From Bacillota bacterium (lineage in GTDB: Bacteria > Bacillota > Clostridia > Lachnospirales > Lachnospiraceae), in contig JAEWRS010000108.1 of assembly GCA_023398855.1 (NCBI GenBank), forward strand, positions 1 to 18,636: a stretch of DNA of 18,636 bases, read 5' to 3'. Position 1 is the stretch's first letter. Every line of letters begins with the position of its first letter. A program made the position numbers and the translations under genes. Shown piece by piece: positions 1 through 17,854 of the stretch. The notes below the pieces were generated by a model. That model did not search any database. It was given only the letters and a program-made list of their open reading frames with translations, and was not told the DNA's origin.

Positions 1-966
1 GAGCCAGGTACTGTTCCGGGAGTGATGTTTCATGAGGGAGAAAAGGCTCAGGTCTTTAATCAGCTTCAGGCATTGAACCAGCTGAGGTTCCAGAATTTAA
101 CAGGAAAACCTGTACAGGAGCCTGGACTTCCGGAAACAGAAGCCGCAGTGATTTCGGCAGAAGCAGGAACAGCGCAGTCTGCGGTAAGCCTGGAAGATGA
201 AGTGGGAAAACTGGGAAAAGCAAGCCAAAAGGAATCCCGGGGAATGGAAGGTTTGGGACAGGCCAAGGGGCCCGGGTCTGACCGGGAAGGTGAAGATAAC
301 ATTTGGGAGGCGAAACCGCTAAAAGGAACACTTGAGGAGGTCCCGGAGAGAAAAGGGGAAGAGGCAGTTATACCGGTACAACGAGAGAAGACAAAGGTAA
401 AACCGGATTTCATTGAGAAAGATGAAAAAAAACAGGCTGAGAACCAGGAAATTTCACGGGAAAACTTTTTTGAACCCAACCGTATTCATTCAGTCCAGCC
501 CTTAAAAGAGGAGACCGCTTATGTGACGGTAAATGCCGAGAGTCTGGAAGGATTAGAGTCAAAGCTCTCTCAGCAGATTTTTAAACAGATCCAGGCAGGC
601 AGAGGAGAACTGGATGTACAGCTGGAACCTCATAATCTGGGCAAGATCCGGATCAAGGTTTCTTATGAGGACAGTCAGGTCAGCGTATCTGTTTTGTGCT
701 CAGAAAGCAGAACCTTAAAGCTATTGTCCCAGTCAGCGGGAGCATTGGGATCGATTCTGGAAAATAACCTGGAACGTCCGGTTCAGATCCTGGTGGATAA
801 GCAGGGGACAGATTATCTGGACAATCAGAAGGAACAAGGCAACGGACAAGAACAGCACCAGCCCCAGCATGAAAACAGGAAAGAAGAAAGCCGAGAGGAT
901 TTTATTCAAAAGCTGAGACTTGGTATCTTTGAAACAGGTAATGCGCAGGAAATGGAAATCAGATAG
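1..966 (+). CDS. fliK: Flagellar hook-length control protein FliK (5' end missing)
   Basis: FliK is the secreted ruler that measures the hook and, through FlhB, switches the export apparatus from hook to filament subunits. The reading frame is open from base 1, so the start lies upstream; 321 codons are visible. The first two thirds are low-complexity, rich in Glu, Lys, Gln and Gly, as expected of the extended ruler part. The C-terminal Flg_hook domain lies at about 520-800, with the family signature LDVQLEPHNLGKIRIKV near 610-660, followed by the helical part ending in PVQILVD. A Gln/Glu-rich tail follows. The gene is followed 15 bases later by flgD, the usual partner. The domain is clear; the exact N-terminus cannot be judged. 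Confidence 0.9.
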   Translation, partial: EPGTVPGVMFHEGEKAQVFNQLQALNQLRFQNLTGKPVQEPGLPETEAAVISAEAGTAQSAVSLEDEVGKLGKASQKESRGMEGLGQAKGPGSDREGEDNIWEAKPLKGTLEEVPERKGEEAVIPVQREKTKVKPDFIEKDEKKQAENQEISRENFFEPNRIHSVQPLKEETAYVTVNAESLEGLESKLSQQIFKQIQAGRGELDVQLEPHNLGKIRIKVSYEDSQVSVSVLCSESRTLKLLSQSAGALGSILENNLERPVQILVDKQGTDYLDNQKEQGNGQEQHQPQHENRKEESREDFIQKLRLGIFETGNAQEMEIR

Positions 967-981
967 ATAAGGAGAGAAAAA

Positions 982-1524
982 ATGGCAGATGTAAATACAG
1001 TGAACAACTATAGTTCTCTCATCAATTCACTTACTAAAAGCTCAAAAACTACGGCCAGCGGCGAGCTGACAACAGATGGCTTCTTTAAGCTTATGGCTGC
1101 ACAGCTGCAAAATCAGGACATGTCAAGTCCTATGGACAATTCGGAGATGATGACTCAAATGACTCAGATTGCCATGATGCAGGCGATGAATAATTTTTCC
1201 ACTGCTATGGAGGATTTTTCACAGATCAATACCATTAACTATGGTACCTCCATGATGGGAAAAGAGATTATGCTTGCAACCGAAGATAATACCGGTCAGA
1301 TAAAAAAGATTAATGGAACCGTAACAAGAGTGGATATCTTCAGCGGTATTCCGACTATTTACATCAATGATGACAGTAAAAAAGGATATTCCATTGCCAA
1401 TGTTATGTCTGTTTATGAAAAGGGACATGCTCCTACTGAGGAGACGGAAGAGACGGACCCGGAAAAGGAAACGGATAAGGATAAGGCTTCTGGCTCAGTT
1501 ACTGACACAGAAACGAATCAGTAG
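982..1524 (+). CDS. flgD: Flagellar hook assembly (cap) protein FlgD
   Basis: FlgD forms the cap at the tip of the growing hook and guides FlgE polymerisation. The 180-residue protein has the conserved N-terminal FlgD region at about residues 28-75, with FFKLMAAQLQNQDMSSPMDN and a Met/Gln-rich helix after it. A short beta-rich part follows (about 93-146; GTVTRVDIFSGIPTIYIN). It is much shorter than proteobacterial FlgD and shows no obvious Ig-like domain, as in the short Bacillus form. Residues 152-180 are an acidic Glu/Thr/Asp-rich tail of no evident fold. An AAGGAGA ribosome binding site precedes the ATG. It sits between fliK and the TIGR02530-type gene, the normal order. Confidence 0.93.
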   Translation: MADVNTVNNYSSLINSLTKSSKTTASGELTTDGFFKLMAAQLQNQDMSSPMDNSEMMTQMTQIAMMQAMNNFSTAMEDFSQINTINYGTSMMGKEIMLATEDNTGQIKKINGTVTRVDIFSGIPTIYINDDSKKGYSIANVMSVYEKGHAPTEETEETDPEKETDKDKASGSVTDTETNQ

Positions 1525-1556
1525 AGTGCTGCTGAGGGAGACGGAGGTGAGGAACA

Positions 1557-1931
1557 ATGATAAACAAAGTAAACCAATATGAGGATGTCAGACAGCTGAA
1601 ACTGCGGAGCGCCGCGGCAGCATCTCAATGCGGAAGCTGTTTTGGCGATGTACTGAAGAGCCGTATTGGCAGCAAGGATGAACTTCAATTTTCCCGGCAT
1701 GCTGCAGAGCGGGTCAGCCAGCGCGGAATTGATATGTCGGAGCCATTTTTAAATGACCTCCAGTCCGCCGTGGAAAAAGCCCGGTCAAAAGGTGCAAAGG
1801 ATGTGGTTATTATCAGCGAAAGGGGAGCGTTTATCGTGAACATTCCTAACAATACGGTGGTAACTACCATGTCAGGCAGCGAAATGAAGGAAAATATTTT
1901 TACCAATATTGACAGTGCCATCTTATTATAG
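1557..1931 (+). CDS. Conserved small flagellar-operon protein (TIGR02530 type)
   Basis: This 124-residue protein matches the family found between flgD and flgE in many Firmicutes, known as a flagellar operon protein (TIGR02530). Recognisable features are FSRHAAERVSQRGIDMSE at about residues 45-62, an amphipathic helix with AVEKARSKGAKD (75-86), and the C-terminal stretch NNTVVTTMSGSEMKENIFTN leading to IDSAILL. No signal peptide or membrane segment is seen. Its biochemical role is not established to my knowledge; position suggests a part in hook assembly. The ribosome binding site is GGAGGTGAGGA just before the ATG. The assignment rests on remembered family sequence, not on a search. Confidence 0.85.
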   Translation: MINKVNQYEDVRQLKLRSAAAASQCGSCFGDVLKSRIGSKDELQFSRHAAERVSQRGIDMSEPFLNDLQSAVEKARSKGAKDVVIISERGAFIVNIPNNTVVTTMSGSEMKENIFTNIDSAILL

Positions 1932-2015
1932 CTGGACCATTTATGGAGGCTTTTTCTTCCCGTCCGATTGACTGGGGAAAGATGGCAATAACACAGAAGA
2001 GAGGAAACACATTGT

Positions 2016-3617
2016 ATGGTCAAATCAATGTTCGCTGGTGTGGCAGGACTCAGGGCTCACCAGTCAAAAATGGATATCATAGGAAATAATATAGCTAACG
2101 TAAATACCTGGGGATTCAAAGCGGCAAGCATGTCTTTTAAGGATACTATGTACCAGACCACATCTTCCGGCTCTGGGGGCAGCACCAAGACGGGAGGCTA
2201 CGGAGGTACCAATGCGGGTCAGGTAGGATATGGAGTTACCACGGGCTCCATTTCTTATGACTTTACCAAAGGAGGAACAGCTCCGTCTGCCAATGGTCTG
2301 GATTGTATGATTGATGGTACCGGGTTTTTTATAGTAGGTCCCATGATCAGCGGAGGAACTCTGCCTTTGGGGGAAGAAGGCGCACTGAAATCCAGTGGTC
2401 TGTATCTTTCCAGAGTTGGTAAATTCCAGGTGGATGGAAACGGTTATCTGACTGATGATTCAGGTAATTATGTGTATGGTTTTACAAGGTCCGGAGATCC
2501 GACTGATGACGGCAGTTTTGACACCACAGCTCTTACGCCTCTGAAAATCCCTACAAAGTCTGATATGGCAGGCGTAAGCAATAAAGGTGCCAAGGATAAA
2601 ATTGCAGATGCAAAAAAGAAATTGGAAGAAGCAAGAGCATTGTTTAATGCAATGGATGCAGAGCTGGGAAATGCTAGAAATACATACATTACAGCTAATG
2701 ATAATTATACTGCCAAATATGCGGCTGCTGGTGTTGATGCAGCAAAAACCGATATGGATGCAAAAAAGACTGCAATGGATGATGCATACAGGGTATGGCT
2801 GGATGACAAGGACAACTCGGCTGCCAAGACAGATTATCTCGAGAAAAAGACAGAATATGATAAGGCAAACAGCGCTTTTATTGTAGCCCAGGCAAATGTC
2901 AGAAAAGCGACTGCCCTGGCATCAAGTAAAGTAACCGAGTTAAATGATGATGTGACAGCTTACACAAAGGCATATTCGGCCTATATTATGTCTGATCCTT
3001 CCACGGATCCGGATTACGAGACAAAGAAAACCGCCTATACCACAACAAAGGCAGCATTAGATAAAATCCAGTCAGAATTGTCAAAAATAGAGGATAAATC
3101 TCCGGAAGGTCTGCGGGATGCTGCCAAACAGGTGGTTGATTCGGCATTGGCTAAGGTGGCTGCGGCAAAGACAACGGTGGAAAATGCAGAAAAAACTTTG
3201 AAAACCGCTCAAAATGCTGCCACTACTACAGCGATAGACAATGCTTCTGCTGACGATACTAAGGCATCCTTGTCCAATTTTAAGATTCGGACGAATGGTA
3301 CGGTGGTCGGTATATCTGAAGACGGTGTTACCATTGTTATTGGTAAGATTGGCCTGGCAGGCGTACAAAATACCGGAGGTCTTGAAAAGGACAGCGGCTA
3401 TTATTATACCCTTGGAGCTAATACCGGTAATGTAAGTGTTTATGAAGGCGGAGGAACAGAAGGGCGTATCCTTGGCAACTATTTAGAGCAGGCAAAGGTT
3501 GATCTTGCCACGGAAATGACTGAGATGATTACCACTCAAAGAGGATTCCAGGCGAACTCAAAGATCATAACCGTAACAGATCAAATGCTTGATGAGCTGG
3601 TAAATATGAAGCGTTAA
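2016..3617 (+). CDS. flgE: Flagellar hook protein FlgE with large helical insertion
   Basis: FlgE polymerises into the hook, the universal joint between rod and filament. At 533 residues it is about twice the Bacillus size. The N-terminal part is canonical: SMFAGVAGLRAHQSKMDIIGN (4-24), ANVNTWGFKA (27-36), and the D1 core with MIDGTGFFIV (98-107), YLSRVGKFQVDGNGYL (130-145) and TPLKIP (174-179). The C-terminal part resumes at LSNFKIRTNGTVVGI (419-433), followed by GKIGLAGVQNTGGLEKDSGYY and the helix LATEMTEMITTQRGFQANSKI (497-517). Between them, about residues 184-417, lies an Ala/Lys/Asp/Thr-rich helical segment not expected in FlgE. The start at 2016 gives the family N-terminus, with AGAGAGGAAA upstream. 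An 84-base gap separates it from the gene before. Confidence 0.93.
   Translation: MVKSMFAGVAGLRAHQSKMDIIGNNIANVNTWGFKAASMSFKDTMYQTTSSGSGGSTKTGGYGGTNAGQVGYGVTTGSISYDFTKGGTAPSANGLDCMIDGTGFFIVGPMISGGTLPLGEEGALKSSGLYLSRVGKFQVDGNGYLTDDSGNYVYGFTRSGDPTDDGSFDTTALTPLKIPTKSDMAGVSNKGAKDKIADAKKKLEEARALFNAMDAELGNARNTYITANDNYTAKYAAAGVDAAKTDMDAKKTAMDDAYRVWLDDKDNSAAKTDYLEKKTEYDKANSAFIVAQANVRKATALASSKVTELNDDVTAYTKAYSAYIMSDPSTDPDYETKKTAYTTTKAALDKIQSELSKIEDKSPEGLRDAAKQVVDSALAKVAAAKTTVENAEKTLKTAQNAATTTAIDNASADDTKASLSNFKIRTNGTVVGISEDGVTIVIGKIGLAGVQNTGGLEKDSGYYYTLGANTGNVSVYEGGGTEGRILGNYLEQAKVDLATEMTEMITTQRGFQANSKIITVTDQMLDELVNMKR
2565..3266 (+). other. Predicted helical/coiled-coil insertion inside FlgE
   Basis: Approximate limits, FlgE residues 184-417. 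By eye it forms four helical segments: about 190-237, 241-325, 335-360 and 367-408. Pro and Gly are almost confined to the breaks (G239; P328 and P332; P363 and G365). It contains no Cys or His and hence no metalloprotease motif. It sits where the variable D2 domain of other hook proteins lies, so it should project outward from the hook. The reading frame is intact across it and both flanks are normal FlgE. The helical prediction is from composition and pattern only. Confidence 0.7.
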
Positions 3618-3640
3618 TAATAAGCTTTAGCAGTGATTTT

Positions 3641-3661
3641 GGGAGGCGGTGTCCGCCTCCC
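3641..3661 (+). repeat. Perfect 9-bp inverted repeat with 3-base loop between flgE and flbD
   Basis: GGGAGGCGG, loop TGT, CCGCCTCCC. It lies 23 bases after the flgE stop and ends 7 bases before the flbD ribosome binding site (AAGGGGG, 3669-3675). All pairs are Watson-Crick and mostly G-C, so the RNA hairpin should be very stable. No T run follows on either strand, so it does not look like an intrinsic terminator. It could protect the 3' end of processed flgE mRNA or set relative expression of hook and stator genes (inference). Confidence 0.75.
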
Positions 3662-3683
3662 CGGATTTAAGGGGGAAAAAGAG

Positions 3684-3887
3684 ATGATTCGTCTGACCAG
3701 GTTGAATGACGAGGAATTTATAATTAACTGCAGACAAATTGAACGGGTAGAATCCATACCGGAATCAAATATAATATTGGTGAGCGGTAAGCACTATGTG
3801 GTAAAAGAAAGTATAGATGAGATCATAAACCGAGTAATTGAGTATAATGCCCGAATCTATGCATGCGCGCAGAGAATGAAAGTATAA
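3684..3887 (+). CDS. flbD: FlbD/SwrD family flagellar protein
   Basis: This 67-residue protein has the FlbD/SwrD pattern: start MIRLTRLNDEEFIINCRQIE, then VESIPESNIILVSGKHYVVKES and a C-terminal helix (DEIINRVIEYN). In Bacillus subtilis SwrD supports motor torque by keeping MotA/MotB levels up; here it lies directly before motA and motB, which fits. The ATG at 3684 is preferred over one at 3633 because AAGGGGG (3669-3675) is 8 bases upstream and the family begins with MI.L. The longer reading would run through the 3641-3661 hairpin and add unmatched residues. The C-terminal end (RIYACAQRMKV) has two residues either side of a lone Cys and no known motif. Confidence 0.88.
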   Translation: MIRLTRLNDEEFIINCRQIERVESIPESNIILVSGKHYVVKESIDEIINRVIEYNARIYACAQRMKV

Positions 3888-3920
3888 TTCAGGCATTGCC
3901 TGGGCTATGGGAGGTTATTC

Positions 3921-4739
3921 ATGGATATATCATTAATTGTTGGCTGGGTAATGGGAACTGTTTTGATTATTTATGGAATCGGGCTGAAAAAGATCGGGAA
4001 TTTCATAGATGTGGACAGTATTATCATTGTTGTTGGGGGCACAATTGCAGCTTTGATTGCCAGCTACCCATTCAAAGTTCTTGCACAGGTTCCGAAGCAT
4101 ATCGGGATCATGCTCAGTCCCCAAAGGTACAATGCAGAAAAGGTTATTGATACTTTGGTGGATATGGCCAAGACAGCCAGAAAAAAAGGACTTTTAGTGC
4201 TGGAGGAGCAGGCTAACGGAATTAAAGATCCCTTTCTTAAGCAAAGTGTTATGCTGATTGTGGATGCTATGGATGCTGAAAAAATCAGGGAAATGCTGGA
4301 AAGTGAGGTCTTAGCTATGTCTGAGCGCCATGATCAGGATGTCAGTATGTATGAAAAGGGGACTTCCGTTGCCCCGGCATTTGGTATGATCGGTACTTTG
4401 GTAGGACTTGTTAACATGCTGAAAAGTATGGATATGGAAAGCGGAAGCGCAAACAGTTTAGGGACAGATATGTCGGTTGCCTTGATTACTACGTTTTATG
4501 GCTGCGTTCTGGCACACTTGCTGTTCGGCCCCATGGCCAAAAAGCTTCGTATCCGAAACGATGAGGAAATGTTGTATAAACAAATTATTATTGAAGGCGT
4601 GTTGTCCATTCAGGCAGGAGATAATCCTAAATACTTAGAAGAGAAGCTGCTGTCTTATCTGTCTCAGGGACAACAGAATAAAATCATGAAGAAAAAATCC
4701 GGTGGTACTGGAAAAGAAGATGCTTCAGCGGCATCATAG
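3921..4739 (+). CDS. motA: Flagellar stator protein MotA
   Basis: MotA forms with MotB the ion channel that drives rotation. The 272-residue protein has four membrane segments at about 4-21, 32-52, 149-168 and 183-205. The cytoplasmic loop has the charged torque-generating region KTARKKGLLVLEEQ (84-97; R87 and E95/E96 match the family Arg and Glu). P152 in APAFGMIGTLVGLV corresponds to the essential Pro of transmembrane helix 3. The C-terminus is basic, then Gly/Ser-rich. GGGAGG precedes the ATG. motB follows 51 bases later. Which ion is used (H+ or Na+) cannot be told from what I can see. Confidence 0.95.
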   Translation: MDISLIVGWVMGTVLIIYGIGLKKIGNFIDVDSIIIVVGGTIAALIASYPFKVLAQVPKHIGIMLSPQRYNAEKVIDTLVDMAKTARKKGLLVLEEQANGIKDPFLKQSVMLIVDAMDAEKIREMLESEVLAMSERHDQDVSMYEKGTSVAPAFGMIGTLVGLVNMLKSMDMESGSANSLGTDMSVALITTFYGCVLAHLLFGPMAKKLRIRNDEEMLYKQIIIEGVLSIQAGDNPKYLEEKLLSYLSQGQQNKIMKKKSGGTGKEDASAAS

Positions 4740-4790
4740 GTTCTTTTGGTTTTATGGGCGGTTACTTAAAACAGGGAAACAGGTGGTTAT

Positions 4791-5579
4791 ATGATAAAGA
4801 AAGATAAGAAGCCGGAAGAGCTTGGAAGCTGGATGGATACATATGGAGACATGGTTACATTGTTGCTGTGCTTTTTCGTCCTTCTGTATTCTATGTCCTC
4901 CGTTGACCAGTCCAAATGGAAGCTGTTGGTGCAAAGCTTTAATCCCAGTGCCTTAGAAGGATCGGACCAGGTAGTGCTGGATGCCAAGGTTACGGAAGGG
5001 GAGGGAGAATTGACTGGAGGTGTTCCTGATGAGGGAGGCGGGACAACAGATTTTGATGAGCTGTATCTGGTATTAAAGCAGATCGTTGAAGATCGTAATA
5101 TGCAGGATAGTGTCGAAATTAGTCGAGGAGACGGCTTCACATTTATTTCATTTCGTGATAAAGTATTTTTTGACGGAGACAGTTCCGTTCTCAGGCAGGA
5201 AGGAAAAGACGTTCTTGACCAATTTGCTGCAGCCATGTTTCAGGCAAATAATACAATTAAAGAAGTCCAGGTGCTGGGGCATACCTCCCAGGGAGATCCG
5301 GCCAGGCCGAATAATATCCGTAATGACAGAATGCTGTCTGCTCAGCGTTCCGCGGAAGTTATCATTTATCTCCAAAGCAAAAATGCCGTTTCACCGGAAA
5401 AGCTGGTGGGTTTAAGCTTTGGTCAGTTTCGTCCGATTGCGCAGTTTGATACGGAAGACGGGCGTGCAAAGAACCGCCGTGTGGAAATCCTGATAACTAA
5501 GAATGATACGGTTGAAAAGTCCCTGGAGGAATACTACAACCAGGTATATCAAGACAGTCAGGAAGAAACAGGCAATTAA
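4791..5579 (+). CDS. motB: Flagellar stator protein MotB
   Basis: MotB couples ion flow to rotation and anchors the stator to peptidoglycan. The 262 residues start with a short basic cytoplasmic part, then one membrane helix (about 19-36) with the ion-binding Asp as D20 in TYGDMVTLLLCFFVLLYSMS. A plug/linker rich in Gly and acidic residues (about 58-88) follows, then an OmpA-like domain (about 106-237) with FRDKVFFDGDSSVL, LSAQRSAEVI and NRRVEILI. In the family's GHTD motif the Asp is replaced: the text reads VLGHTSQGD, with S166 at that place. The Arg of the LSAxR motif (R186) is kept. AGGTGG lies 4 bases before the ATG. fliL, often next, is absent. Confidence 0.94.
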   Translation: MIKKDKKPEELGSWMDTYGDMVTLLLCFFVLLYSMSSVDQSKWKLLVQSFNPSALEGSDQVVLDAKVTEGEGELTGGVPDEGGGTTDFDELYLVLKQIVEDRNMQDSVEISRGDGFTFISFRDKVFFDGDSSVLRQEGKDVLDQFAAAMFQANNTIKEVQVLGHTSQGDPARPNNIRNDRMLSAQRSAEVIIYLQSKNAVSPEKLVGLSFGQFRPIAQFDTEDGRAKNRRVEILITKNDTVEKSLEEYYNQVYQDSQEETGN

Positions 5580-5601
5580 ATAATTAGCGGGAGTGAAACA
5601 G

Positions 5602-6621
5602 ATGGCTGAAATATTATCCCAAAGTCAGATTGACGCGCTGCTCAATTCCCTGCAGGGAACTGATGAGCCTATCAAGGAGATTGATAAGAAAGAAAATGAA
5701 TTAAAATACAGGAAATATGATTTTTACAGTCCCAAGAAGTTTACAAAGGATAAACTGAAAATTCTAAAAAGTATCTTTGATAATTATTCCAGAATTGCCG
5801 GTTCCCAGATCAACAGTTTATTCCGGACTTCCAGTGAATTGTCTGTGGTTACGGTAGAAGAACAGCGGTATTATGAGTTTGCCAATGCGCTTGGAGATAA
5901 TGATGTTCTTACTATTGTCAATGTATCCTTACCGGATCATTCCAAGAACCCTCCGCTTATGATCAATGTCAGTATGACCTTGATGTTAAGCCTGATTGAC
6001 CGAATGCTGGGAGGAGTGGGAGACGATATAGTGATTGACTCATCTTACACCTATACGGAAATTGAAATGGTTTTATACCGGAGGGTGGTCCAATATATAA
6101 TTGGTGCGTTAAAAGATTCGTGGTCAAGCTATATTAACCTGAATTTTGAACTGGACAGGCTGGAGGAAAATCCAAGCATGTTCCAGGAAATTGGTGTGGA
6201 TGAAACCATTGTTATCGTTGTTATTGATGTAGATATGAAGGAATGCTCCGGAAGATTTAATATCTGTATTCCGGGAAATCTGCTCATGAATATATTCGAT
6301 ACTATGGATAAACGGAAGCACATTGCTATGGGGGCTGAGGCTAACAGTCAGGATAATAGACAGGAAATCATGAACAGCATTAAGGCTTCCGACTTGCTGG
6401 TTCAGGCTCAGGTAGGAGAAGCGGTGATTACCCTTGATGATGTATACAATCTTCATGTGGGAGATGTCATTAATTTAGGCACCCCGAAGGATTCGAATGT
6501 ACAGCTGTATGTGGAAAGCCAGCCATGGTTCAGAGGCCAGCTGGGCGTTCATAAGCGGAATGTGGCGGTTCGGATCGAAGACCTTGTTGAAGAAGGAAAT
6601 AACCAGACCGGTGAGAGCTGA
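5602..6621 (+). CDS. fliM: Flagellar motor switch protein FliM
   Basis: FliM is the part of the C-ring that receives CheY-P and passes the signal to FliG. The 339-residue protein begins MAEILSQSQIDALLNSLQG, the CheY-P binding peptide (LSQSQIDALL, residues 5-14). The middle domain (about 38-240) is CheC-like without phosphatase residues and carries the FliG-contact loop MLGGVGDD (135-142). The C-terminal SpoA domain runs from about 258 to 328 (VGEAVITLDDVYNLHVGDVI). I chose the ATG at 5602 rather than GTG at 5593, because it gives the family N-terminus and GCGGGAG lies upstream. It follows motB after 22 bases. Confidence 0.96.
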   Translation: MAEILSQSQIDALLNSLQGTDEPIKEIDKKENELKYRKYDFYSPKKFTKDKLKILKSIFDNYSRIAGSQINSLFRTSSELSVVTVEEQRYYEFANALGDNDVLTIVNVSLPDHSKNPPLMINVSMTLMLSLIDRMLGGVGDDIVIDSSYTYTEIEMVLYRRVVQYIIGALKDSWSSYINLNFELDRLEENPSMFQEIGVDETIVIVVIDVDMKECSGRFNICIPGNLLMNIFDTMDKRKHIAMGAEANSQDNRQEIMNSIKASDLLVQAQVGEAVITLDDVYNLHVGDVINLGTPKDSNVQLYVESQPWFRGQLGVHKRNVAVRIEDLVEEGNNQTGES

Positions 6622-6670
6622 GTCAGGGATTACATAAAGAATTAAGGATGATAAAAGGAGATGCAAAGAA

Positions 6671-7030
6671 ATGGCGAAAATATTATTAGTAGATGATGCG
6701 GCGTTTATGAGAATGATGATTAAGGATACTTTGACAAAGAACGGGTATACCGATTTGTATGAAGCTTCCGATGGTGCACAGGCAGTGCAGATGTTTTCAG
6801 AGATCAATCCTGACTTAGTAATCATGGATATCACCATGCCCAATATGGATGGGCTGGAGGCATTAAAGCTTATCAAAGGGAAATATCCCAATGCTGCTGT
6901 TGTTATGTGTTCTGCAATGGGACAAGAGAGTATGGTAATCGAAGCAATTAAATCCGGCGCAAAGGATTTTATTGTGAAACCCTTCAAACCTGACCGTATA
7001 CTGAAAACAGTTACAGGTATTATCGGCTAG
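6671..7030 (+). CDS. cheY: Chemotaxis response regulator CheY
   Basis: A single receiver domain of 119 residues. CheA phosphorylates it and CheY-P binds the switch. Acidic pocket D8/D9 (ILLVDD), phosphoacceptor D53 (VIMDITMPNMDG), S81 at the Thr/Ser switch position, F100 and K103 (DFIVKPF) are all present. No output domain follows. It lies directly after fliM, whose N-terminal peptide it should bind; in the Bacillus order it comes after fliY. GGAGATGC is the upstream ribosome binding site. Because there is no kinase gene nearby, CheA must lie elsewhere or downstream of the window. Confidence 0.95.
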   Translation: MAKILLVDDAAFMRMMIKDTLTKNGYTDLYEASDGAQAVQMFSEINPDLVIMDITMPNMDGLEALKLIKGKYPNAAVVMCSAMGQESMVIEAIKSGAKDFIVKPFKPDRILKTVTGIIG

Positions 7031-7054
7031 ATCATATACTGCAGGAGGGTACAT

Positions 7055-7501
7055 ATGTCGTTCTTAAGTTCTATGAACATCAGTGCGTCGGCAATGACGG
7101 CACAGCGTCTTCGGCTGGATATTGCATCGGAGAACATTGCAAATATTGATACTACAAGGACAGAAGCCGGTGGCCCTTACCGGAGAAAGATGGTGGTTCT
7201 TGAATCCAGGAGTGAAGGCAATTTCCGCAGAGTCCTGATGAATGCGGCTGGTTTGGGCAGGCAGCAAAGCAGCGGAGGGGTTCGGGTTTCACAGATCATG
7301 GAAGATACCAGTCCCTTCAAGTCCGTCTACAGCCCGGAACATCCGGATGCGGATGAAAATGGCTATGTGCAGATGCCTAATGTGGACCTGATTAAGGAAA
7401 CTGTGGACAGTATGTCTGCAACCAGATCTTATGAGGCTAACATCACTGCATTTAATGCGGTAAAGGCGATGGCTTCCAAGGCGTTGGAAATTGGGAAGTA
7501 A
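7055..7501 (+). CDS. flgC: Flagellar basal-body rod protein FlgC
   Basis: FlgC is a proximal rod subunit. The 148-residue protein matches FlgC over its length: N-terminal SSMNISASAMTAQRLRLDIA (5-24), the ENIANIDTTRT motif, PYRRKMVVLES (41-51), then PDADENGYVQMPNVD and the C-terminal helix RSYEANITAFNAVKAMASKA ending LEIGK. Both terminal heptad helices needed for polymerisation are intact, so this does not look like a decaying copy. The place is odd: flgC normally follows flgB at the head of the operon, next to fliE. Here it is 24 bases after cheY and 48 before fliY. Whether another flgC exists upstream cannot be seen. GCAGGAGGGT is a strong ribosome binding site. Confidence 0.93.
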   Translation: MSFLSSMNISASAMTAQRLRLDIASENIANIDTTRTEAGGPYRRKMVVLESRSEGNFRRVLMNAAGLGRQQSSGGVRVSQIMEDTSPFKSVYSPEHPDADENGYVQMPNVDLIKETVDSMSATRSYEANITAFNAVKAMASKALEIGK

Positions 7502-7524
7502 TCGTATATGGCATAGAGGGCTAA

Positions 7525-7569
7525 ATGAGTATAGAGGGAGAAGAGTTATATGGATTCGAAGAATTTTAG
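7525..7569 (+). CDS. Possible micro-ORF overlapping the fliY start
   Basis: A 14-codon reading frame (MSIEGEELYGFEEF) with AGAGGG 4 bases before its ATG. It runs into fliY in another frame and stops 20 bases inside it. It could couple translation of fliY to ribosomes arriving from flgC, or be chance. No homology is claimed. Confidence 0.15.
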   Translation: MSIEGEELYGFEEF

Positions 7570-8902
7570 CGCATTTGAGATTGATGCCATAGGTGAAATA
7601 CTGAATATAAGCCTGGGAGCCTCAGCCACAGCAGTATCTACCATGCTCAATGCCAGAGTTGATATCACCACACCAGTGGTTAAGGTATTGTCAAAGGATG
7701 AATTTGAGATTTCAAACCTGGAACCAGCAATAGGGGTGGAAATTACTTACATAGCTGGACTTAGCGGAAGTAATCTCATGCTTTTAAAGAGACATGATGT
7801 AAAAGTAATTGTTGATATGCTGATGGGTATGGAGACCCCGGAAGAAGAATTTGAGCTGAATGAACTGAATATCAGTGCGATTTGTGAGGTCATGAATCAA
7901 ATGATGGGTTCATCCGCAACGGCTCTGTCGGAATTTTTAAGTAAGACCGTTAACATCTCTACTCCAACTTCCTTTGAAATCAGTGATATCAATGAGTTCA
8001 AAGAAAAATATTATAATAATGAAGATCACATGGTTGTCGTGGGATTCACCTTAAAGATTGCAGATCGGCTGGAAAGTGAGTTTATTAATGTGATGCCTCC
8101 CAGTCTTGCTAAGGAATTAGTGGGAGGATTTTTTCCTCAGGAGATCCAGGAACCGGATCCGGCCCAATCATCGGCCCCGGCCTCATCACCATCACCGGCT
8201 CCAGAACCGGCTTCTTCCTTTTCAGGAGGAGGAATTCTCTCTCAAGAGGAGATCGAAAAACTTTTAGCTGGCAGTGTGCAGCCAGAACCATCTCCTGAGC
8301 CTCAAAAGGCACCTGAGCCAGTTCATTCATCTGGAGGCATTTTGTCCCAGGAAGAGATTGAAAAACTATTGGCAGGCAGCATGACACCGGAGGCTCCTAA
8401 AACAGTGCGGCAGCCTGAAACGGTGACAGCGCCCATAAGTCCGATGCCGGAAGCGGATCACACGGCGGTTCAGCAGATGATGCAGCAGATGCAGATGCAG
8501 CAGCAAATGATGCAGCAAATGCAGCAGATGATCATTCAGCTGCAAAGCGGGCAGCAAAGCATACCCAAAAAGGAAGTTCAGGAACCCAAGACCATAAATG
8601 TCAAGCCAATTCCCCAAAACAGCTTGCGGGAAGGGGAGACAAGCTATGAGGAGCAGGAGGAAAACCGGGAACTGATCATGGGCGTGCCCTTGGAAGTATC
8701 GGTAGAGATCGGCAGAACCAGGAAGCTTGTGAAGGAAATACTTGAATTTACCAAGGGCTCATTGGTGATCCTGGATAAACTGGCAGGTGACCAGGTGGAT
8801 TTATACGTAAACGGCCGGGGCATCGCCAAAGGGGATGTGGTCGTGGTTGATGATAATTTTGGTATCCGTATTACAGAAATCACTAGGAAGAACGCAGAGT
8901 AG
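7550..8902 (+). CDS. fliY: FliY: CheY-P phosphatase fused to FliN-type switch domain
   Basis: FliY is the Gram-positive switch protein that joins a CheC-like CheY-P phosphatase to a FliN SpoA domain in the C-ring. The 450 residues hold: a CheC-like domain (about 5-195) with two complete DxxxExxN-x22-P type sites, D12/E16/N19/P42 and E113/N116/P139; a Pro/Ser-rich linker; two copies of GGILSQEEIEKLLAGS (227-242 and 262-277); a Gln/Met run (308-327); and the C-terminal SpoA domain (about 374-447; PLEVSVEIGRTRKLVKEIL). In Bacillus FliY the FliM-like CheY-binding peptide is single and N-terminal; here it is internal and doubled. AGAGGGAGAAG precedes the ATG. Confidence 0.94.
   Translation: MDSKNFSAFEIDAIGEILNISLGASATAVSTMLNARVDITTPVVKVLSKDEFEISNLEPAIGVEITYIAGLSGSNLMLLKRHDVKVIVDMLMGMETPEEEFELNELNISAICEVMNQMMGSSATALSEFLSKTVNISTPTSFEISDINEFKEKYYNNEDHMVVVGFTLKIADRLESEFINVMPPSLAKELVGGFFPQEIQEPDPAQSSAPASSPSPAPEPASSFSGGGILSQEEIEKLLAGSVQPEPSPEPQKAPEPVHSSGGILSQEEIEKLLAGSMTPEAPKTVRQPETVTAPISPMPEADHTAVQQMMQQMQMQQQMMQQMQQMIIQLQSGQQSIPKKEVQEPKTINVKPIPQNSLREGETSYEEQEENRELIMGVPLEVSVEIGRTRKLVKEILEFTKGSLVILDKLAGDQVDLYVNGRGIAKGDVVVVDDNFGIRITEITRKNAE
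8228..8380 (+). repeat. Two tandem copies of a FliM-like CheY-binding motif in FliY
   Basis: Copies at 8228-8275 and 8333-8380, each coding for GGILSQEEIEKLLAGS, 105 bases apart start to start. The peptides are identical but 10 of the 16 codons differ, all synonymously. That is expected of an old duplication held by selection on the peptide. The core LSQEEIEKLL matches the FliM N-terminal motif in this same operon (LSQSQIDALL). Confidence 0.85.
8471..8530 (+). repeat. CAG/CAA/ATG trinucleotide repeat (Gln/Met run) in fliY
   Basis: Twenty consecutive codons, FliY residues 308-327, are all Gln or Met. Any three-base slippage keeps the frame, so length could vary between strains. It forms the last part of the linker before the SpoA domain and may be a short helix or coiled coil. 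Confidence 0.8.
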
Positions 8903-8919
8903 AGAGGAAGTGGCTGTAT

Positions 8920-9276
8920 TTGAACAGTATAATTAGTCTGGCATCGGTGCTGATTCTTACCGTTTTGGTTCTGTATTTAAGCTATGTGTTTACAAAAAGC
9001 CTTGGAAATGGAATCGGTATGAAGCGGGGCGGAAGCTCTATGGAGATGCTGGACAGGCTTTCCCTTGGACAGGATAAAGCTGTGGCAGTGATCCGTGCAG
9101 GGAGCCGGTATTATCTGATTGGTATTGCTTCTTCCCAAATAACTCTTCTTGCGGAGCTTTCTGAAGAGGATGTTCCCAAAGCGACAGCGGCTTCTCCATC
9201 ATTTGGAACAGATGGGTACGAAAATTTTAAAAATATTTTGAAGAAATACACAGACAAACATAAGAAAGATATATGA
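8920..9276 (+). CDS. fliO: Flagellar export protein FliO
   Basis: FliO helps assemble the FliP ring of the export gate. The 118-residue protein has one membrane helix near the N-terminus (about 4-26; SLASVLILTVLVLYLSYVFT), then a short cytoplasmic domain with SMEMLDRLSLGQDKAVAVIR, RYYLIGIASSQITLLAEL and a basic end. It must start at the TTG at 8920: the next in-frame ATG lies after the membrane helix. GAGGAAG (8904-8910) is 9 bases upstream, overlapping the end of fliY. FliO is poorly conserved; the call rests on size, topology, motif and place before fliP. Confidence 0.87.
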   Translation: MNSIISLASVLILTVLVLYLSYVFTKSLGNGIGMKRGGSSMEMLDRLSLGQDKAVAVIRAGSRYYLIGIASSQITLLAELSEEDVPKATAASPSFGTDGYENFKNILKKYTDKHKKDI

Positions 9277-9281
9277 GGAGG
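9275..9281 (+). promoter_or_regulatory. Ribosome binding site deciding the fliP start
   Basis: GAGGAGG overlapping the fliO stop codon and 6 bases before ATG 9288. This near-perfect site favours 9288 over the ATG at 9273 that lies on the fliO stop, and suggests translational coupling. Confidence 0.7.
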
Positions 9282-9287
9282 AATGAA

Positions 9288-9950
9288 ATGAATACAGATG
9301 CCTTGGTTAATATTAACGGCGGAAGGGTGCCAACCCTGGAGCTATTTCTTATTCTGACCATCATTTCATTGCTGCCCTCTATATTAGTGATGATGACATC
9401 CTTTACCAGGATTGTCATTATCTTGTCGTTTACCAGAAACGCTTTGGGAGTTCAGCAGGCTCCCCCCAATATGGTGCTTGTAGGGATCGCACTGTTTTTG
9501 ACTCTGTTTATTATGGATCCCGTAATTAAGGATATCAATACCAACGCTTATCAGCCGTATATTAAGGAAGAAATCAGCCAGGAAGAGGCCTTGAGCCGTG
9601 CTCAGGTTCCCATGAAAAAGTTTATGCTGAAACAGACAGAGAAGTCGACCCTGAACCTATTTGTAGATTTGTCAAATACGGATATGCCTGAAAATATAGA
9701 GGATCTTCCCATGACGGTGGTGATTCCGTCATTTATGACCTCTGAATTAAAGAGGGCATTTACGGCCGGTTTTATGATCTTTCTGCCATTTATGCTGGTG
9801 GACATTGTTGTGTCAAGTACCCTGATGTCCATGGGTATGGTCATGCTTCCTCCGGCAATGATTTCCCTTCCCTTTAAGCTTCTTTTATTTGTAACGGTAA
9901 ATGGCTGGGAGCTTTTGTTTACAAATCTGGTTAAAAGTTTCCACTACTGA
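9288..9950 (+). CDS. fliP: Flagellar export gate protein FliP
   Basis: FliP is the main subunit of the export channel (with FliQ and FliR). The 220-residue protein has membrane segments at about 17-36, 61-80, 158-177 and 185-207. Conserved stretches are MMTSFTRIVIILSFTRNALG (35-54), the motif QQAPPNMVLVGIALFLT, PSFMTSELKRAF (147-158) and GFMIFLPFMLVDIVVSSTLM. It lacks a cleavable N-terminal signal peptide, like the short Bacillus form. Starting at 9273 instead would add MRRNE with a poorer ribosome binding site. It is followed after 14 bases by fliQ. Confidence 0.96.
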   Translation: MNTDALVNINGGRVPTLELFLILTIISLLPSILVMMTSFTRIVIILSFTRNALGVQQAPPNMVLVGIALFLTLFIMDPVIKDINTNAYQPYIKEEISQEEALSRAQVPMKKFMLKQTEKSTLNLFVDLSNTDMPENIEDLPMTVVIPSFMTSELKRAFTAGFMIFLPFMLVDIVVSSTLMSMGMVMLPPAMISLPFKLLLFVTVNGWELLFTNLVKSFHY

Positions 9951-9964
9951 CGGGAGGATAGAAT

Positions 9965-10225
9965 ATGACGGAAGTTGCACTTAGCGGTTTGATGTATGAG
10001 ATGTTTGGGCTGGCTGTAAAGCTGGCAGGTCCTGTTCTGGTGGTAAGCATGGTGGTTGGTGTCATTATTTCCATACTGCAGGCTGCCACACAGATTCACG
10101 AGCAGACCATTACCTTTGTTCCCAAACTGATCGTCATAGGCTTGGTTCTTTTGATGATGGGGAGCAATATGATGGATACTCTATGTGATTTTACCATACA
10201 TATTTTCAGCACCATGTTAGGATAA
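9965..10225 (+). CDS. fliQ: Flagellar export gate protein FliQ
   Basis: An 86-residue protein of two membrane helices (about 14-36 and 54-76) with the FliQ signature AGPVLVVSMVVGVIISILQAATQIHEQTI split around the first hairpin; the QAATQ...EQT core is at about residues 39-50. FliQ packs around the FliP/FliR core of the gate. A GGGAGGA ribosome binding site precedes the ATG, and fliR follows after 18 bases. Confidence 0.95.
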   Translation: MTEVALSGLMYEMFGLAVKLAGPVLVVSMVVGVIISILQAATQIHEQTITFVPKLIVIGLVLLMMGSNMMDTLCDFTIHIFSTMLG

Positions 10226-10243
10226 AGGGAAAGGAATGTTTAA

Positions 10244-11005
10244 ATGCCGGAAATAGGACAAATGATGCTGTTTTCCCTGATTTTCATGAGGATGTCAGGT
10301 TTTATCCTGTTGAATCCGATTCTGGGAAGAAGGAATATTCCTAATGTAGTAAAGGGCGGAATGGTCATGGTATTTACCCTCCTGATCTATTCCTTTTCAG
10401 CAGCCCAGGTGCCGGAACCGGTTAATTCCATAGAATTTGCGGTACTGATTGTGAAAGAATTTCTTATGGGTTATGTCATTGGTTTTGTTATGGAATTGTT
10501 TCTCATGGTCATCACCTTTGCAGGCTCCATAATAGATTTTCAGATGGGATTGTCCATGGCAACAATTTATGATCCTCAGAGTAACGCCCAGGTGGCTGTT
10601 ACCGGAAGCCTTTGGCATGCGTATCTCGTACTTTTGTTTTTTGCGGTAGATGGACATCTGGCTTTGATTAAGCTGCTTATAAAATCTGCCGAGACGGTTC
10701 CTTATGGACAGGTGGTTCTCGGGACAAAAGTGGCCTGGGCAATAATTGAGGTATTCATTCAATGTATTATCATGGCCATCAAATTCTCATTTCCTATTAT
10801 AGCAATTGAATTTATAACGGAAATAGCAGTTGGAATTCTGATGAAGATGATTCCGCAGATCAATGTGTTTGTTGTAAACATACAGGCAAAGCTTATGATT
10901 GGACTGCTTATGCTGATTTTCCTGTTTTCTCCCATGTCAGATTATTTGGGCGATTTGATAACTCAGATGCTTCTTACGGTCCAGAGCATGATCAGACTTT
11001 TGTAA
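10244..11005 (+). CDS. fliR: Flagellar export gate protein FliR
   Basis: FliR is the single-copy core of the export gate. The 253 residues are mostly hydrophobic, with about six membrane segments. Conserved points are FMRMSGFILLNPILGRRNIP (14-33), the segment VKEFLMGYVIGFVMELF (around 70-86), GSIIDFQMGLSMATIYDPQS and the C-terminal VNIQAKLMIGLLMLIFLFSP. Length is standard. A 93-base gap follows before flhB, the longest in the export block; I see no gene or clear hairpin in it. Confidence 0.95.
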   Translation: MPEIGQMMLFSLIFMRMSGFILLNPILGRRNIPNVVKGGMVMVFTLLIYSFSAAQVPEPVNSIEFAVLIVKEFLMGYVIGFVMELFLMVITFAGSIIDFQMGLSMATIYDPQSNAQVAVTGSLWHAYLVLLFFAVDGHLALIKLLIKSAETVPYGQVVLGTKVAWAIIEVFIQCIIMAIKFSFPIIAIEFITEIAVGILMKMIPQINVFVVNIQAKLMIGLLMLIFLFSPMSDYLGDLITQMLLTVQSMIRLL

Positions 11006-11098
11006 GGGTTAAGGAAACACCCTGCAAATATGTCCTGGCATCTGGTGAGGCGGGAGCGGTTTTAGGCCGTGTAAAAGGAAAGGATGTGATGAACGGCA

Positions 11099-12160
11099 AT
11101 GGCAGGTGATTCTAAGACCGAGAAGGCCACCCCTAAAAAACGGAAGGATGAACGGAAGAAGGGTCATGTTGCCGTCAGCAAAGATGCGACAATGGTCGCG
11201 TCCCTTCTTGGTATATTTATGATGCTTAAGATGTTGTTTCCGCTCATGTATAAAACTTTGCGGAATTACATGATAAAGTACATTAGCCTGGCGCCATCGG
11301 CTGAGACTTTGTCCGATTATACGGCAAAGGCATTTATGGATACGATTGAGGCTATTGCAAAGGCTTCCCTCCCCATTCTTCTGGTTTCCGTCCTGCTGGC
11401 AGTAGTTGCCACGGGGGTGCAAACAAGGTTTCTTTTTACTAAAAGCAATATGGCTCCTAAATTTAACCGGTTGAATCCACTTCAGGGTATTAAGAATATT
11501 CTTTCACTCAAAAGCCTTGTGGAGCTGATTAAGAGTTTAATAAAAATAACAATTTTGATCCTGATCCTTTATCAGATCATTAAAGGTGATTTAAGAGCAG
11601 TGGCAAGAACCCTTGATATGGAGCTTCAGGATTCGTCGGTTTATGTGCTGAACGCAATTCTTGAAATGATCACCAAGGTATCCATTGTATTTCTGGCCAT
11701 TGCGGGATTTGACTACTTTTACCAGTGGTGGGATTTTGAGCGTCAGATTAAGATGTCAAAGCAGGAATTAAAGGAAGAATACAAACAGACGGAAGGGAAT
11801 CCCGAAATTAAGGGGAGGATCCGCAACCTTCAGAGGGAACGGGCCAAGTCCAGAATGATGCAGGCTGTCCCTACTGCAGATGTGATCGTGCGAAATCCTA
11901 CCCATTACGCAGTGGCTCTGCGGTATGACATAGAAAAGGATGGTGCACCTGTACTTGTGGCAAAAGGCCAGGATGAGCTGGCTCTGAGAATTGTAGCGGT
12001 AGGTGAGGAAAATGGGGTGTATGTGCTTGAGAATAAGCCCCTGGCAAGAGGGATATACGCCGGCACCCAGGTGGGAGCTGAGATCCCATCGGAATACTAC
12101 GGCATGGTCGCCGAAATTCTTGTTTACGTATACCGTATGAATAACAAGATTATTGAGTAG
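11099..12160 (+). CDS. flhB: Flagellar export switch protein FlhB
   Basis: FlhB controls export specificity and cuts itself so that, together with FliK, export changes to filament proteins. The 353-residue protein begins MAGDSKTEKATPKKRKDERK, the typical soluble basic N-terminus. Four membrane segments lie at about 31-50, 88-108, 143-163 and 183-206. The cytoplasmic domain has the self-cleavage motif NPTH at 266-269 (ADVIVRNPTHYAVAL), then ARGIYAGTQVGAEIP. The nearest purine-rich site (AAGGAAAGG) is about 15 bases before the ATG, rather far, but upstream in-frame codons include a stop and the N-terminus fits the family. Confidence 0.95.
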   Translation: MAGDSKTEKATPKKRKDERKKGHVAVSKDATMVASLLGIFMMLKMLFPLMYKTLRNYMIKYISLAPSAETLSDYTAKAFMDTIEAIAKASLPILLVSVLLAVVATGVQTRFLFTKSNMAPKFNRLNPLQGIKNILSLKSLVELIKSLIKITILILILYQIIKGDLRAVARTLDMELQDSSVYVLNAILEMITKVSIVFLAIAGFDYFYQWWDFERQIKMSKQELKEEYKQTEGNPEIKGRIRNLQRERAKSRMMQAVPTADVIVRNPTHYAVALRYDIEKDGAPVLVAKGQDELALRIVAVGEENGVYVLENKPLARGIYAGTQVGAEIPSEYYGMVAEILVYVYRMNNKIIE

Positions 12161-12200
12161 AAAAAGCGGCAGAGATACTTGAAAGAAATGGTGCAAAAGA

Positions 12201-14270
12201 ATGAAGAATTTACTGAAAAATTCCGTAGTAATTTTTGTTATTATGATCGTACTTCTGTTGATTATCCCATTGCCTCCATTTTTATTGGATGTAATGATTA
12301 TCATAAATATTTCTCTTTCCATGATAATCTTATTGATAACCATGAACATAAGAGAGCCATTGGAGTTTTCTATTTTTCCGGCTCTGCTGTTGGTTACCAC
12401 CCTTCTGCGCTTGGGATTAAACGTGTCTACCACACGAAACATCTTATCCCACCAGGGATCATCAGGTATGGTGATCAAGGCCTTTGGTGATTTTGTATTG
12501 CAGGGAAATATTGTCGTTGGTTTTATTATATTCCTGATCCTGGTATTGGTAAACTTTCTTGTTATTACCAAGGGTACGGAGCGGGTATCAGAGGTTGCAG
12601 CCAGATTTACCCTGGATGCCATGCCAGGAAAACAGATGGCCATTGATGCAGATTTAAGCTCCGGTCTGATCAACGAACAGGAGGCCAAATTAAGACGGTA
12701 TAAGATCCAGAAAGAAGCTGACTTTTACGGAGCAATGGATGGTGCTACCAAGTTTGTGAAGGGAGACGCCGTCATGTCCATCATTGTTACTGCCATTAAC
12801 TTTATCGGCGGAACAATCATTGGTATGGTACAGTCTGACATGCTTTTCAGTCAGGTAATAACCGTTTATTCGATTGCAACGGTGGGTGACGGACTTGTCT
12901 CTCAGCTGCCGGCTCTTTTGATTTCCACAGCAACGGGTATGATCGTTACCAGAGCTGTTTCAGAAGGCAGTTTAAATGAAGATGTTTCTGCCCAGTTCAT
13001 GGCACAGCCTAAAGCCATTATGATCACTGGCTTTGTAATGGCAATTCTCATACTGGTTCCTGGAATGCCGAAGGTTCAGCTGGCGATTATGGCTGTTGGC
13101 CTGGTGGCGGCGGGATATCATCTGGAGCAAAAGGTTAAGCAGGCAGCTGTGAGTACCCAGGAAACTGCGGCAGCCTCCATGATGGAAGAGAGTGTCCGGC
13201 CTGCAGAAGATGAAGAATCTTATTACCGGGATGTAAACAATGTGTATTCCCTCATCAATGTTGAGCCTATTGAACTGGAATTTGGCTATAGCCTGATACC
13301 GTTGATTGATGAAAGCAGCGGAGGCAAGATGATTAACAGGATCGTTATTTTCAGAAGGCAATATGCCCAGGATATGGGATTTGTTATTCCTTCCGTCAGG
13401 CTGAGGGACAGTTCAAGCTTAAATACCAATCAATATATCATTAAGATCAGAGACGAAGAAGTGGCCAGAGGAGAGATCCTGGTGGATTATTACCTGGCAT
13501 TAGAGCCTCCCACTCTTTCAGGGGAAGTTGACGGGATCGAAACAGTGGAACCGGCTTATGGAATCCCAAGCAAATGGATCCGTCCTGAGAACAAAGAAAT
13601 GGCAGAAATCTATGGTTATACGGTGATTGATCCTCTTTCCGTAATGCTGACTCATCTGTCTGAAACCATCAGACGGCATGCTTATGAATTATTAGGACGC
13701 CAGGAGGTCATGCAGCTGTTAGATAATGTCAGAAAGCTTTCAGCAGAATTGGTTGATGAGCTGTTTCCCAACCAGTTCTCTTACAGCAGCTTTCAGAAGA
13801 TTCTCAATAATCTTTTAAAGGAAGGCGTGCCCATTAAGGATATGGAGACCATACTGGGAACAATTGTAGACTCGATCCCAACCACAAGGGATATAGATGT
13901 TATTACTGAAAATATCAGAATTGCACTAAAGAGGACCATAACCAGGATGTTCTGTGATGGGGGTCAAATGAAGGTTCTCACCTTGGATGCAGAGCTGGAA
14001 AAAAATATTATCGGAAGTATGGCAAAGGGAGAGCAGGGCGTTTATCTGGCTCTCAGTCCTGATGTAATGCAGTCAGTGATCAGTCAGCTGGGGGATCAGA
14101 TCAAGAAATTCAGCGATCTGGATCAAAAGCCTGTCATCCTGACAAGTCAGGTAGTCAGATTGTATTTCTATCGTTTGATTGATCAGTTCTATCCCAATGT
14201 ATATGTCCTTTCATTTAACGAGATTGCAAATAATATACAGATCCAAGCAGTTGGAAATATCACCATTTGA
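12201..14270 (+). CDS. flhA: Flagellar export protein FlhA
   Basis: FlhA is the large nonameric export protein that docks chaperone-substrate complexes and couples export to the ion gradient. The 689 residues have about eight membrane segments in the first 310, with the family signature RFTLDAMPGKQMAIDADL (about 135-152) in the cytoplasmic loop between them, and the EAKLRRYKIQKEADFYGAMD helix after it. A linker (about 311-345) leads to the cytoplasmic domain, which contains VIDPLSVMLTHLSETIRRHA and SYSSFQKILNNLLKEGVPIKD parts. Length is normal. The ribosome binding site is weak (GAAAGAAATGG), unlike its neighbours. flhF and flhG do not follow. Confidence 0.96.
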   Translation: MKNLLKNSVVIFVIMIVLLLIIPLPPFLLDVMIIINISLSMIILLITMNIREPLEFSIFPALLLVTTLLRLGLNVSTTRNILSHQGSSGMVIKAFGDFVLQGNIVVGFIIFLILVLVNFLVITKGTERVSEVAARFTLDAMPGKQMAIDADLSSGLINEQEAKLRRYKIQKEADFYGAMDGATKFVKGDAVMSIIVTAINFIGGTIIGMVQSDMLFSQVITVYSIATVGDGLVSQLPALLISTATGMIVTRAVSEGSLNEDVSAQFMAQPKAIMITGFVMAILILVPGMPKVQLAIMAVGLVAAGYHLEQKVKQAAVSTQETAAASMMEESVRPAEDEESYYRDVNNVYSLINVEPIELEFGYSLIPLIDESSGGKMINRIVIFRRQYAQDMGFVIPSVRLRDSSSLNTNQYIIKIRDEEVARGEILVDYYLALEPPTLSGEVDGIETVEPAYGIPSKWIRPENKEMAEIYGYTVIDPLSVMLTHLSETIRRHAYELLGRQEVMQLLDNVRKLSAELVDELFPNQFSYSSFQKILNNLLKEGVPIKDMETILGTIVDSIPTTRDIDVITENIRIALKRTITRMFCDGGQMKVLTLDAELEKNIIGSMAKGEQGVYLALSPDVMQSVISQLGDQIKKFSDLDQKPVILTSQVVRLYFYRLIDQFYPNVYVLSFNEIANNIQIQAVGNITI

Positions 14271-14305
14271 CATGGTATTGTGTCTGAAAGGCGGTGTTAG
14301 TCAGA

Positions 14306-15079: not shown

Positions 15080-15099
15080 CAGGAAAGGGGTAAAACACT

Positions 15100-15903: not shown

Positions 15904-15917
15904 GGGAGGAAGGGTCA

Positions 15918-16688: not shown

Positions 16689-16721
16689 ATGCCGTGAGTA
16701 ATGAGGAAAGAGGGCGATATC

Positions 16722-17823: not shown

Positions 17824-17829
17824 ACATTA

Positions 17830-17854
17830 TGAACCAGCTAAAGGATGCCGATAT
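17830..17854 (+). promoter_or_regulatory. Putative sigma-28 (SigD) promoter for cheV
   Basis: The -10 element GCCGATAT (17847-17854) matches the SigD consensus in full. A TGAA at 17830-17833 matches three of four bases of the -35 TAAA, with 14 bases before CCGATAT, within the accepted 14-16. It lies in the cheD-cheV gap, about 50 bases before the cheV ATG. The sigma factor gene is in the same window. The weak -35 keeps this tentative. Confidence 0.5.

Follow-up and report, generated by a model that had tools for sequence, protein, structure and literature searches.

What kind of domain forms the outer part of the flagellar hook in the bacterium studied here, and how did it arise? The DNA analysed (positions 1–18,636, forward strand, of contig JAEWRS010000108.1, Bacillota bacterium assembly GCA_023398855.1; hereafter the window) carries flgE, encoding a hook protein of 533 amino acids (aa). 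A preliminary description had proposed that this protein combines normal FlgE ends and a frame open throughout with a four-helix insertion at 2565–3266 (residues 184–417), which would create a new hook surface. An uninterrupted open reading frame (ORF) was confirmed at 2016–3617. The ends were also as described: the Pfam models Flg_bb_rod (PF00460) and Flg_bbr_C (PF06429) scored over cut-off, as did TIGR03506 of NCBIfam (FlgE/F/G subfamily; 189.8 bits, cut-off 70.25), and the D1 domain fold expected of FlgE was present. FlgE equivalog models matched below cut-off (e.g. NF004241, 217 of 469 bits), and a Pfam scan of the protein gave no model at or above cut-off in its middle.

The full protein was modelled with AlphaFold2 using 62 aligned sequences. 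Six helices were predicted in the middle (residues 181–237, 240–263, 268–296, 303–324, 334–356, and 363–410), with D1 strands flanking them on either side. The predicted local distance difference test score (pLDDT), taken in ten-residue blocks, was 92–98 over residues 191–400 and 83–84 at both edges of the domain. Confidence was low in D0, which is unsurprising for a region modelled outside the polymer. When the segment was modelled alone with nine sequences, it was again all helical (mean pLDDT 89.7). The proposed insertion was thus upheld as helical, but with six helices rather than four and with borders nearer residues 181–410. Known hook D2 domains, such as that of Salmonella, have a beta fold, and the preliminary description had regarded a beta-sandwich D2 as the outcome that would speak against it; neither model had one, residues 181–410 being predicted as helices throughout. 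The C-terminal border of the segment aligned to residue 286 of Salmonella FlgE, whose D2 is given as residues 144–284 (~141 residues; PMC6769732), indicating that the helical segment fills the D2 slot. It lies between the D1 halves like Salmonella D2, which is described as the outermost hook domain, (PMC6769732); unlike that domain it has ~230 residues and is all helical by prediction. We conclude that the D2 slot is predicted, with high confidence, to hold an all-helical bundle of ~230 residues instead of a beta domain. Only the FlgE ends matched hook chains in sequence; the segment matched none among the matches listed. A structure search with the bundle alone returned generic long-helix arrangements with no hook protein among the 50 entries listed, a result that does not exclude likeness to D3/D4 of the Campylobacter jejuni hook protein.

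AlphaFold tends to assign helices to Ala/Lys-rich sequence, and the segment contains 18.5% Ala, 10.7% Lys, 2.9% Gly, and 1.9% Pro over 62 relatives (three Pro and five Gly in residues 184–417 of the window protein). The middle might therefore be a neutral filler of low complexity that adopts no fold, its helices being an effect of composition. Conservation across 102 FlgEs, including that of the window, argued otherwise. Its periodicity, scanned from 60 to 180 degrees, was strongest at 100–105 degrees in all six predicted helices, a signal matched by 0–29 of 500 shuffles, and two control stretches of D1 strand showed no peak there. Hydrophobicity had a helical peak only in helices 2, 4, and 5, so the evidence for periodicity rests mainly on conservation. 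Ten positions, four of them Tyr, were invariant in 25 aligned segments. The ratio of nonsynonymous to synonymous divergence (dN/dS) was 0.10–0.39 in the segment and higher than in the ends in all 15 pairs compared, showing that the segment is under purifying selection on average. Given also the high pLDDT and the presence of the segment in all 23 complete FlgE ORFs from 25 genomes of one genus (see below), a foldless filler is hardly credible.

To see who carries the domain, the genus, the family, and the class were each surveyed, with a relative as the starting point. The segment was matched in all 25 genomes of the genus that includes Lacrimispora amygdalina, L. celerecrescens, and [Clostridium] aerotolerans, 23 of which have flgE whole in one ORF; in one further genome the sequence ends within the gene, and in another the gene is broken. 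A segment profile gave one match per genus genome, at flgE only (two pieces in the broken copy). The helical domain is thus the standard of its genus and not a single-strain oddity. In the genome with the broken copy (L035/L036), flgE is split inside the helical segment into two frames, and a true loss is indistinguishable from a sequencing error. A protein search with the segment alone found nine proteins at E ≤ 1, including that of the window; four named matches were from L. brassicae, L. amygdalina, a Clostridium sp., and a Lachnospiraceae bacterium.

Outside the genus the picture was different. The preliminary description had allowed that such a middle might be standard throughout clostridia; this was not so, yet within the genus it was. 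In the family, eight of 397 genomes matched the segment at E ≤ 1e-4: two genus members strongly, and six weakly in other proteins. A separate family search matched 29 of 299 genomes, with four candidates scored per genome, so that some FlgEs may have been missed. In the class, the FlgE C-terminal part was found at E ≤ 1e-20 in 145 of 391 genomes. By a measure of composition rather than of predicted fold, none of 94 non-genus clostridial FlgE middles of at least 100 residues had the helical character of the genus throughout (81 class and 13 family loci, representing 90 places, four of them counted twice as cut and full copies; the search pattern found a FlgE ORF in all but five of the 90 class loci, and shorter middles were left out). 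The mean helix propensity difference was at most 0.046 in these middles vs at least 0.084 in the genus (32 rows for 24 distinct proteins), and Gly plus Pro was at least 9.8% vs at most 8.8%. Other clostridial genomes also encode FlgE-type proteins of 986–1117 aa with middles of ~700–840 residues (L104, L105, L106, L116, and L117). Two of these (L116 and L117) contain an 80-residue stretch of strong helix propensity within an otherwise non-helical middle.

A tree of the FlgE ends placed the 24 carriers of the helical domain in one clade with support of 100/100 (duplicates, the broken or cut rows L034–L036, L009 and L010, and three loci with no start by the pattern, L058, L059, and L061, were omitted; L009 and L010 are weak relatives from other lineages and were left out of further analysis). 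The rows nearest this clade have either 24–43 or 146–176 residues opposite window residues 161–417. The shorter class (at least 10 rows) lacks an outer domain, and such D2-less FlgEs of other Lachnospiraceae, like FlgG, have D0/D1 ends as in the window protein. The longer class (L042–L047, Lachnospiraceae FlgEs of 416–446 aa) shares the slot and has close ends, with a slot stretch that is not helical in composition. The branches just outside the carrier clade were weakly supported (94/36 and 89/76), so the ancestor may have been either D2-less or equipped with a mid-sized D2. The simplest reading is that the helical domain was gained once, at the base of the genus Lacrimispora. No donor outside FlgE was found, either in the family search or with a profile of the 25 segments against proteins of similar length, in which scoring was confined to the 7993 candidates with the most words in common. 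The single match of that profile at E ≤ 0.001 was a 221-aa protein that itself carries the Pfam domain of the FlgE C terminus. By eye, the six weak family matches look like membrane permease or adaptor proteins with coiled coils.

We next compared the domain between relatives. Identity to the window protein among 61 relatives was 69–93% in the N-terminal part, 64–91% in the C-terminal part, and 27–82% in the segment, showing that FlgE is least conserved in the bundle. The bundle has nevertheless kept to its length and to a helical periodicity. A full-length FlgE search returned 1877 proteins, and among the best 120 of these the middle was 227–281 aa long. For conservation and tree work the 120 were thinned to 102 by removing identical rows as well as any row that resembled a retained one both in the ends and in the tip; the length comparison used the unthinned set. 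In that unthinned set, pairs with ends 97–99.7% identical had segment identities down to 62–65% (medians 83 and 94%), and in some pairs with ends 97–99% identical the distal part was just 45–65% identical. In four pairs with highly similar ends, the loss of identity was concentrated distally, and conserved stretches were found in helix 6 and where helix 1 begins.

The same pattern was seen in DNA. Between L006 and L028, identity was 96–99% over the N-terminal 140 residues and 96–97% in the flanks and fell to 72–76% in the distal bundle, where synonymous divergence (dS) rose from 0.03–0.19 to 0.71–0.95. Between L003 and L019, identity dropped to 58–63% with flanks at 92%. In scans of ~19 kb, flgE had the lowest-identity window in three of five pairs; in the other two the flgE middle was still under the control median. 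The tip and ends trees were mutually rejected. An approximately unbiased (AU) test by itself is weak evidence, because it may reject any tree that was built from different data. A split-half control was therefore added (half of the columns against the tree of the other half), and rejection was seen there too. The nearest neighbour differed between ends and tip in 60 of 102 proteins, and 70 of 119 pairs in the thinned set with ends at least 96% identical had tips at most 60% identical, a share of mosaic-looking pairs that thinning will have inflated. In one mosaic, P0119, the ends were 99% identical to P0110 (tip 50%) and the tip 91% identical to P0108 (ends 91%). Local divergence of the outer domain, conserved ends, and tree conflict, as expected of a hypervariable recombining surface, were thus all observed, though not in every pair. 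The distal variation looks like localized allelic exchange, as reported for C. jejuni FlgE but on an apparently unrelated fold. A second low patch of 76% DNA identity lies at flgE codons ~141–180 in L005/L024, at the D1 edge before the helical domain, and is also found in L006/L007; exchange may thus reach into D1. A diversity-generating retroelement was considered as the source of variation and dropped, because the differences in four aligned pairs were spread over residue types and accompanied by length changes; no dedicated search for such an element was made.

We propose that an ancestral Lacrimispora FlgE acquired the ~230-residue helical domain once, in the slot where others have D2. Because the cohesion of the hook depends on D0, Dc, and D1, the bundle would form the outermost layer. 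Its base would have to fit D1 and its neighbours, and its distal part would face the surroundings and be swapped between strains by homologous recombination, with new variants being favoured. Phages or host antibodies would be the most likely drivers. The preliminary description had suggested stiffening, binding, or shielding as possible roles; the localized variation speaks in favour of a distal part that is exposed and serves in recognition. We give this reading as a whole a probability of roughly 60%.

Several observations weigh against it. Positive selection was not found by dN/dS, which was below 1 in all 15 pairs, and dS in the segment exceeded that of the ends in just eight of them. The ends of L006/L028 outside the N-terminal end reach a dS of 0.41, and L003/L019 are only 84–88% identical across much of the C-terminal half. 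In one of the three pairs with the lowest window in flgE, that single window lies in the D1 part of the gene; two of the five long pairs have their minimum near −8 to −9.5 kb, outside flgE, and two share one genome. Plain mosaics, in which alleles are shared across backbones, were limited to two of 102 proteins at thresholds of our own choosing. Over the whole set, mean conservation was 2.21–2.55 bits in helices 1 and 6 vs 2.07–2.18 bits in the distal part, so that these two helices are almost as variable as the distal part; the sharp contrast between base and tip is seen in close pairs. For many of the 120 proteins the source label gives no more than an assembly type, and these may come from metagenomes. 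The outward orientation is inferred from domain order rather than from a polymer model. Finally, binding of this hook by a phage or an antibody is not known to us, and no search for such a binder was made.

The bundle may instead be a purely mechanical D2, whose contacts set curvature and stiffness and whose sequence varies through relaxed constraint, as change is tolerated in an outer helical bundle, with no recognition partner. The conserved length, the conservation along helix faces, and dN/dS below 1 are consistent with it. In known hooks, D0–Dc form the stable tube and D2 is arrayed on the surface along 6-start lines (PMC6769732), and curvature is attributed to D2–D2 packing, in Salmonella along those lines (PMC9133114, PMC6769732). 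C. jejuni lacking D3/D4 is reported to break its flagella (PMC5097172). However, relaxed constraint should raise dN only, so the local rise in dS in some pairs and the conflict between tip and ends trees across the set count against a mechanical role alone, which we regard as rather unlikely. Under our proposal, the bundle would probably still help tune hook bending, because D2 contacts do so in Salmonella.

C. jejuni offers a close parallel; its D3/D4 are not helical bundles. Hook diameters are given as 180 Å for Salmonella and 280 Å for C. jejuni (PMC5097172). Outer hook domains are known to differ in size and structure between bacteria (PMC5069557). In C. jejuni the variable parts are described as the surface domains D3 and D4, which can vary since the contacts needed for hook organisation do not depend on them (PMC5097172), and flgE is reported as a recombination hot region (PMC4866539). 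For Clostridioides difficile, large parts of the flagellar operons are thought to have been exchanged, with flgE among the recombination-enriched genes (PMC7677006). Like D3/D4, the domain described here is large and group-specific; D3/D4 are surface-exposed and vary between strains (PMC5097172, PMC4866539). Unlike in C. jejuni, where D0–D2 are kept and D3/D4 added (PMC5097172), the Lacrimispora domain itself occupies the D2 slot. By analogy, a C. jejuni-like division of labour would fit here, with a base for fit and bending and a tip for exposure and change.

Alternatively, the bundle may be a dedicated adhesin with one definite target, for example mucin, plant fibre, or an adjacent cell. Its likely surface position, taken from domain order, would allow this, and a link to epithelial binding peptides has been made for a different hook protein (PMC5431167). 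However, no binding family scored over cut-off in Pfam, the structure matches were generic, and the part farthest from D1 was the least conserved, whereas a fixed target should preserve a surface patch. We consider an adhesin improbable. The preliminary description had also judged a protease insertion of the flagellinolysin type unlikely. The hallmark of flagellinolysin is a zinc-binding His motif, and residues 184–417 indeed contain no His and no Cys. The missing residues carry little weight as an argument, because Cys is generally scarce in axial flagellar proteins and a few Cys or His do occur in some relatives. The claim that a helical bundle in the D2 place forms a new hook surface was itself supported by the predictions and the survey.

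A further, tentative extension, which we hold as possible rather than probable, is that the Lacrimispora hook is coated by helical rods of ~7–8 nm, one per subunit (length inferred from helices of 48–57 residues at 1.5 Å per residue), with tips swapped between strains like flagellin or S-layer alleles. These would be hook serotypes on an unrelated fold that change a phage or antibody target, over a base acting as the D2 that sets bending. The literature searched (titles and abstract openings) described no all-helical domain that takes the place of D2 and has a tip of local hypervariability, and a search for Lacrimispora flagella or hooks returned nothing. If our proposal is true, an unrelated fold can replace the outer layer of the hook while the universal joint is retained, and where D2 sits would then be more important than how it is folded. 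This would be the second case, after Campylobacter, of a surface-diversifying hook protein, and it would become testable whether, in bacteria of the gut and the soil, phages or immunity exert pressure on hooks as well as on filaments.

Table 1. Layout of flgE and the domains of its product in the window
Feature	Position	Strand	Basis or remark
flgE, hook protein, 533 aa	2016..3617	+	ORF open throughout
D0 N-terminal helix and linker region, residues 1–84	2016..2267	+	Pfam Flg_bb_rod 8–35; pLDDT <50
D1 N-terminal half, about residues 85–180	2268..2555	+	model strands; structural alignment to hooks/rods ~78..501
Helical domain in D2 slot, residues 181–410, six predicted helices	2556..3245	+	models, conservation periodicity, slot alignment
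Predicted bundle helix 1, residues 181–237, exits D1	2556..2726	+	AlphaFold2
Distal part, predicted helices 2–5, residues 238–362, most variable stretch between relatives	2727..3101	+	
Predicted bundle helix 6, residues 363–410, re-enters D1	3102..3245	+	AlphaFold2
D1 C-terminal half, residues 418–495	3267..3500	+	model, structural alignment, Salmonella FlgE alignment
D0 C-terminal helix, residues 496–533, low model confidence	3501..3614	+	Pfam Flg_bbr_C 488–531

The window is a flagellar operon. The gene order fliK-flgD-flgE-flbD-motA-motB was present, with Flg_hook, FlgD, FlbD, MotA_ExbB, and MotB_plug over their Pfam cut-offs, as was Flagellar_put in a small flagellar gene. Pfam models also scored over cut-off for fliM, a response regulator, a CheC/FliN-type (fliY-like) gene, fliO, fliP, fliQ, fliR, flhB, flhA, cheC, and cheD, and NCBIfam models for flgC and a FliA-type sigma factor. 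Elsewhere, a 75-kb record from human faeces labelled "Bacteriophage sp." (MT835480.1) encodes a FlgE-like protein at 35989–37548 (40% identity over 53% of the query); this record may be a mislabelled bacterial contig.

Two adjoining FlgE/F/G-family rod genes (267 and 256 aa) lie at 15100–16688; their best model was the general FlgEFG one, and neither reached the flgF or flgG cut-offs. The flgC gene, at 7055–7501 (TIGR01395, 169.6 bits, cut-off 102.1), lies between the response-regulator and fliY-like genes and not next to flgB. In all four relatives' genomes compared, flgB was located ~8 kb upstream of flgE, and a flgC-sized frame (152–170 aa, with the FlgEFG C-terminal motif) was found ~4 kb downstream of flgE in seven of seven.
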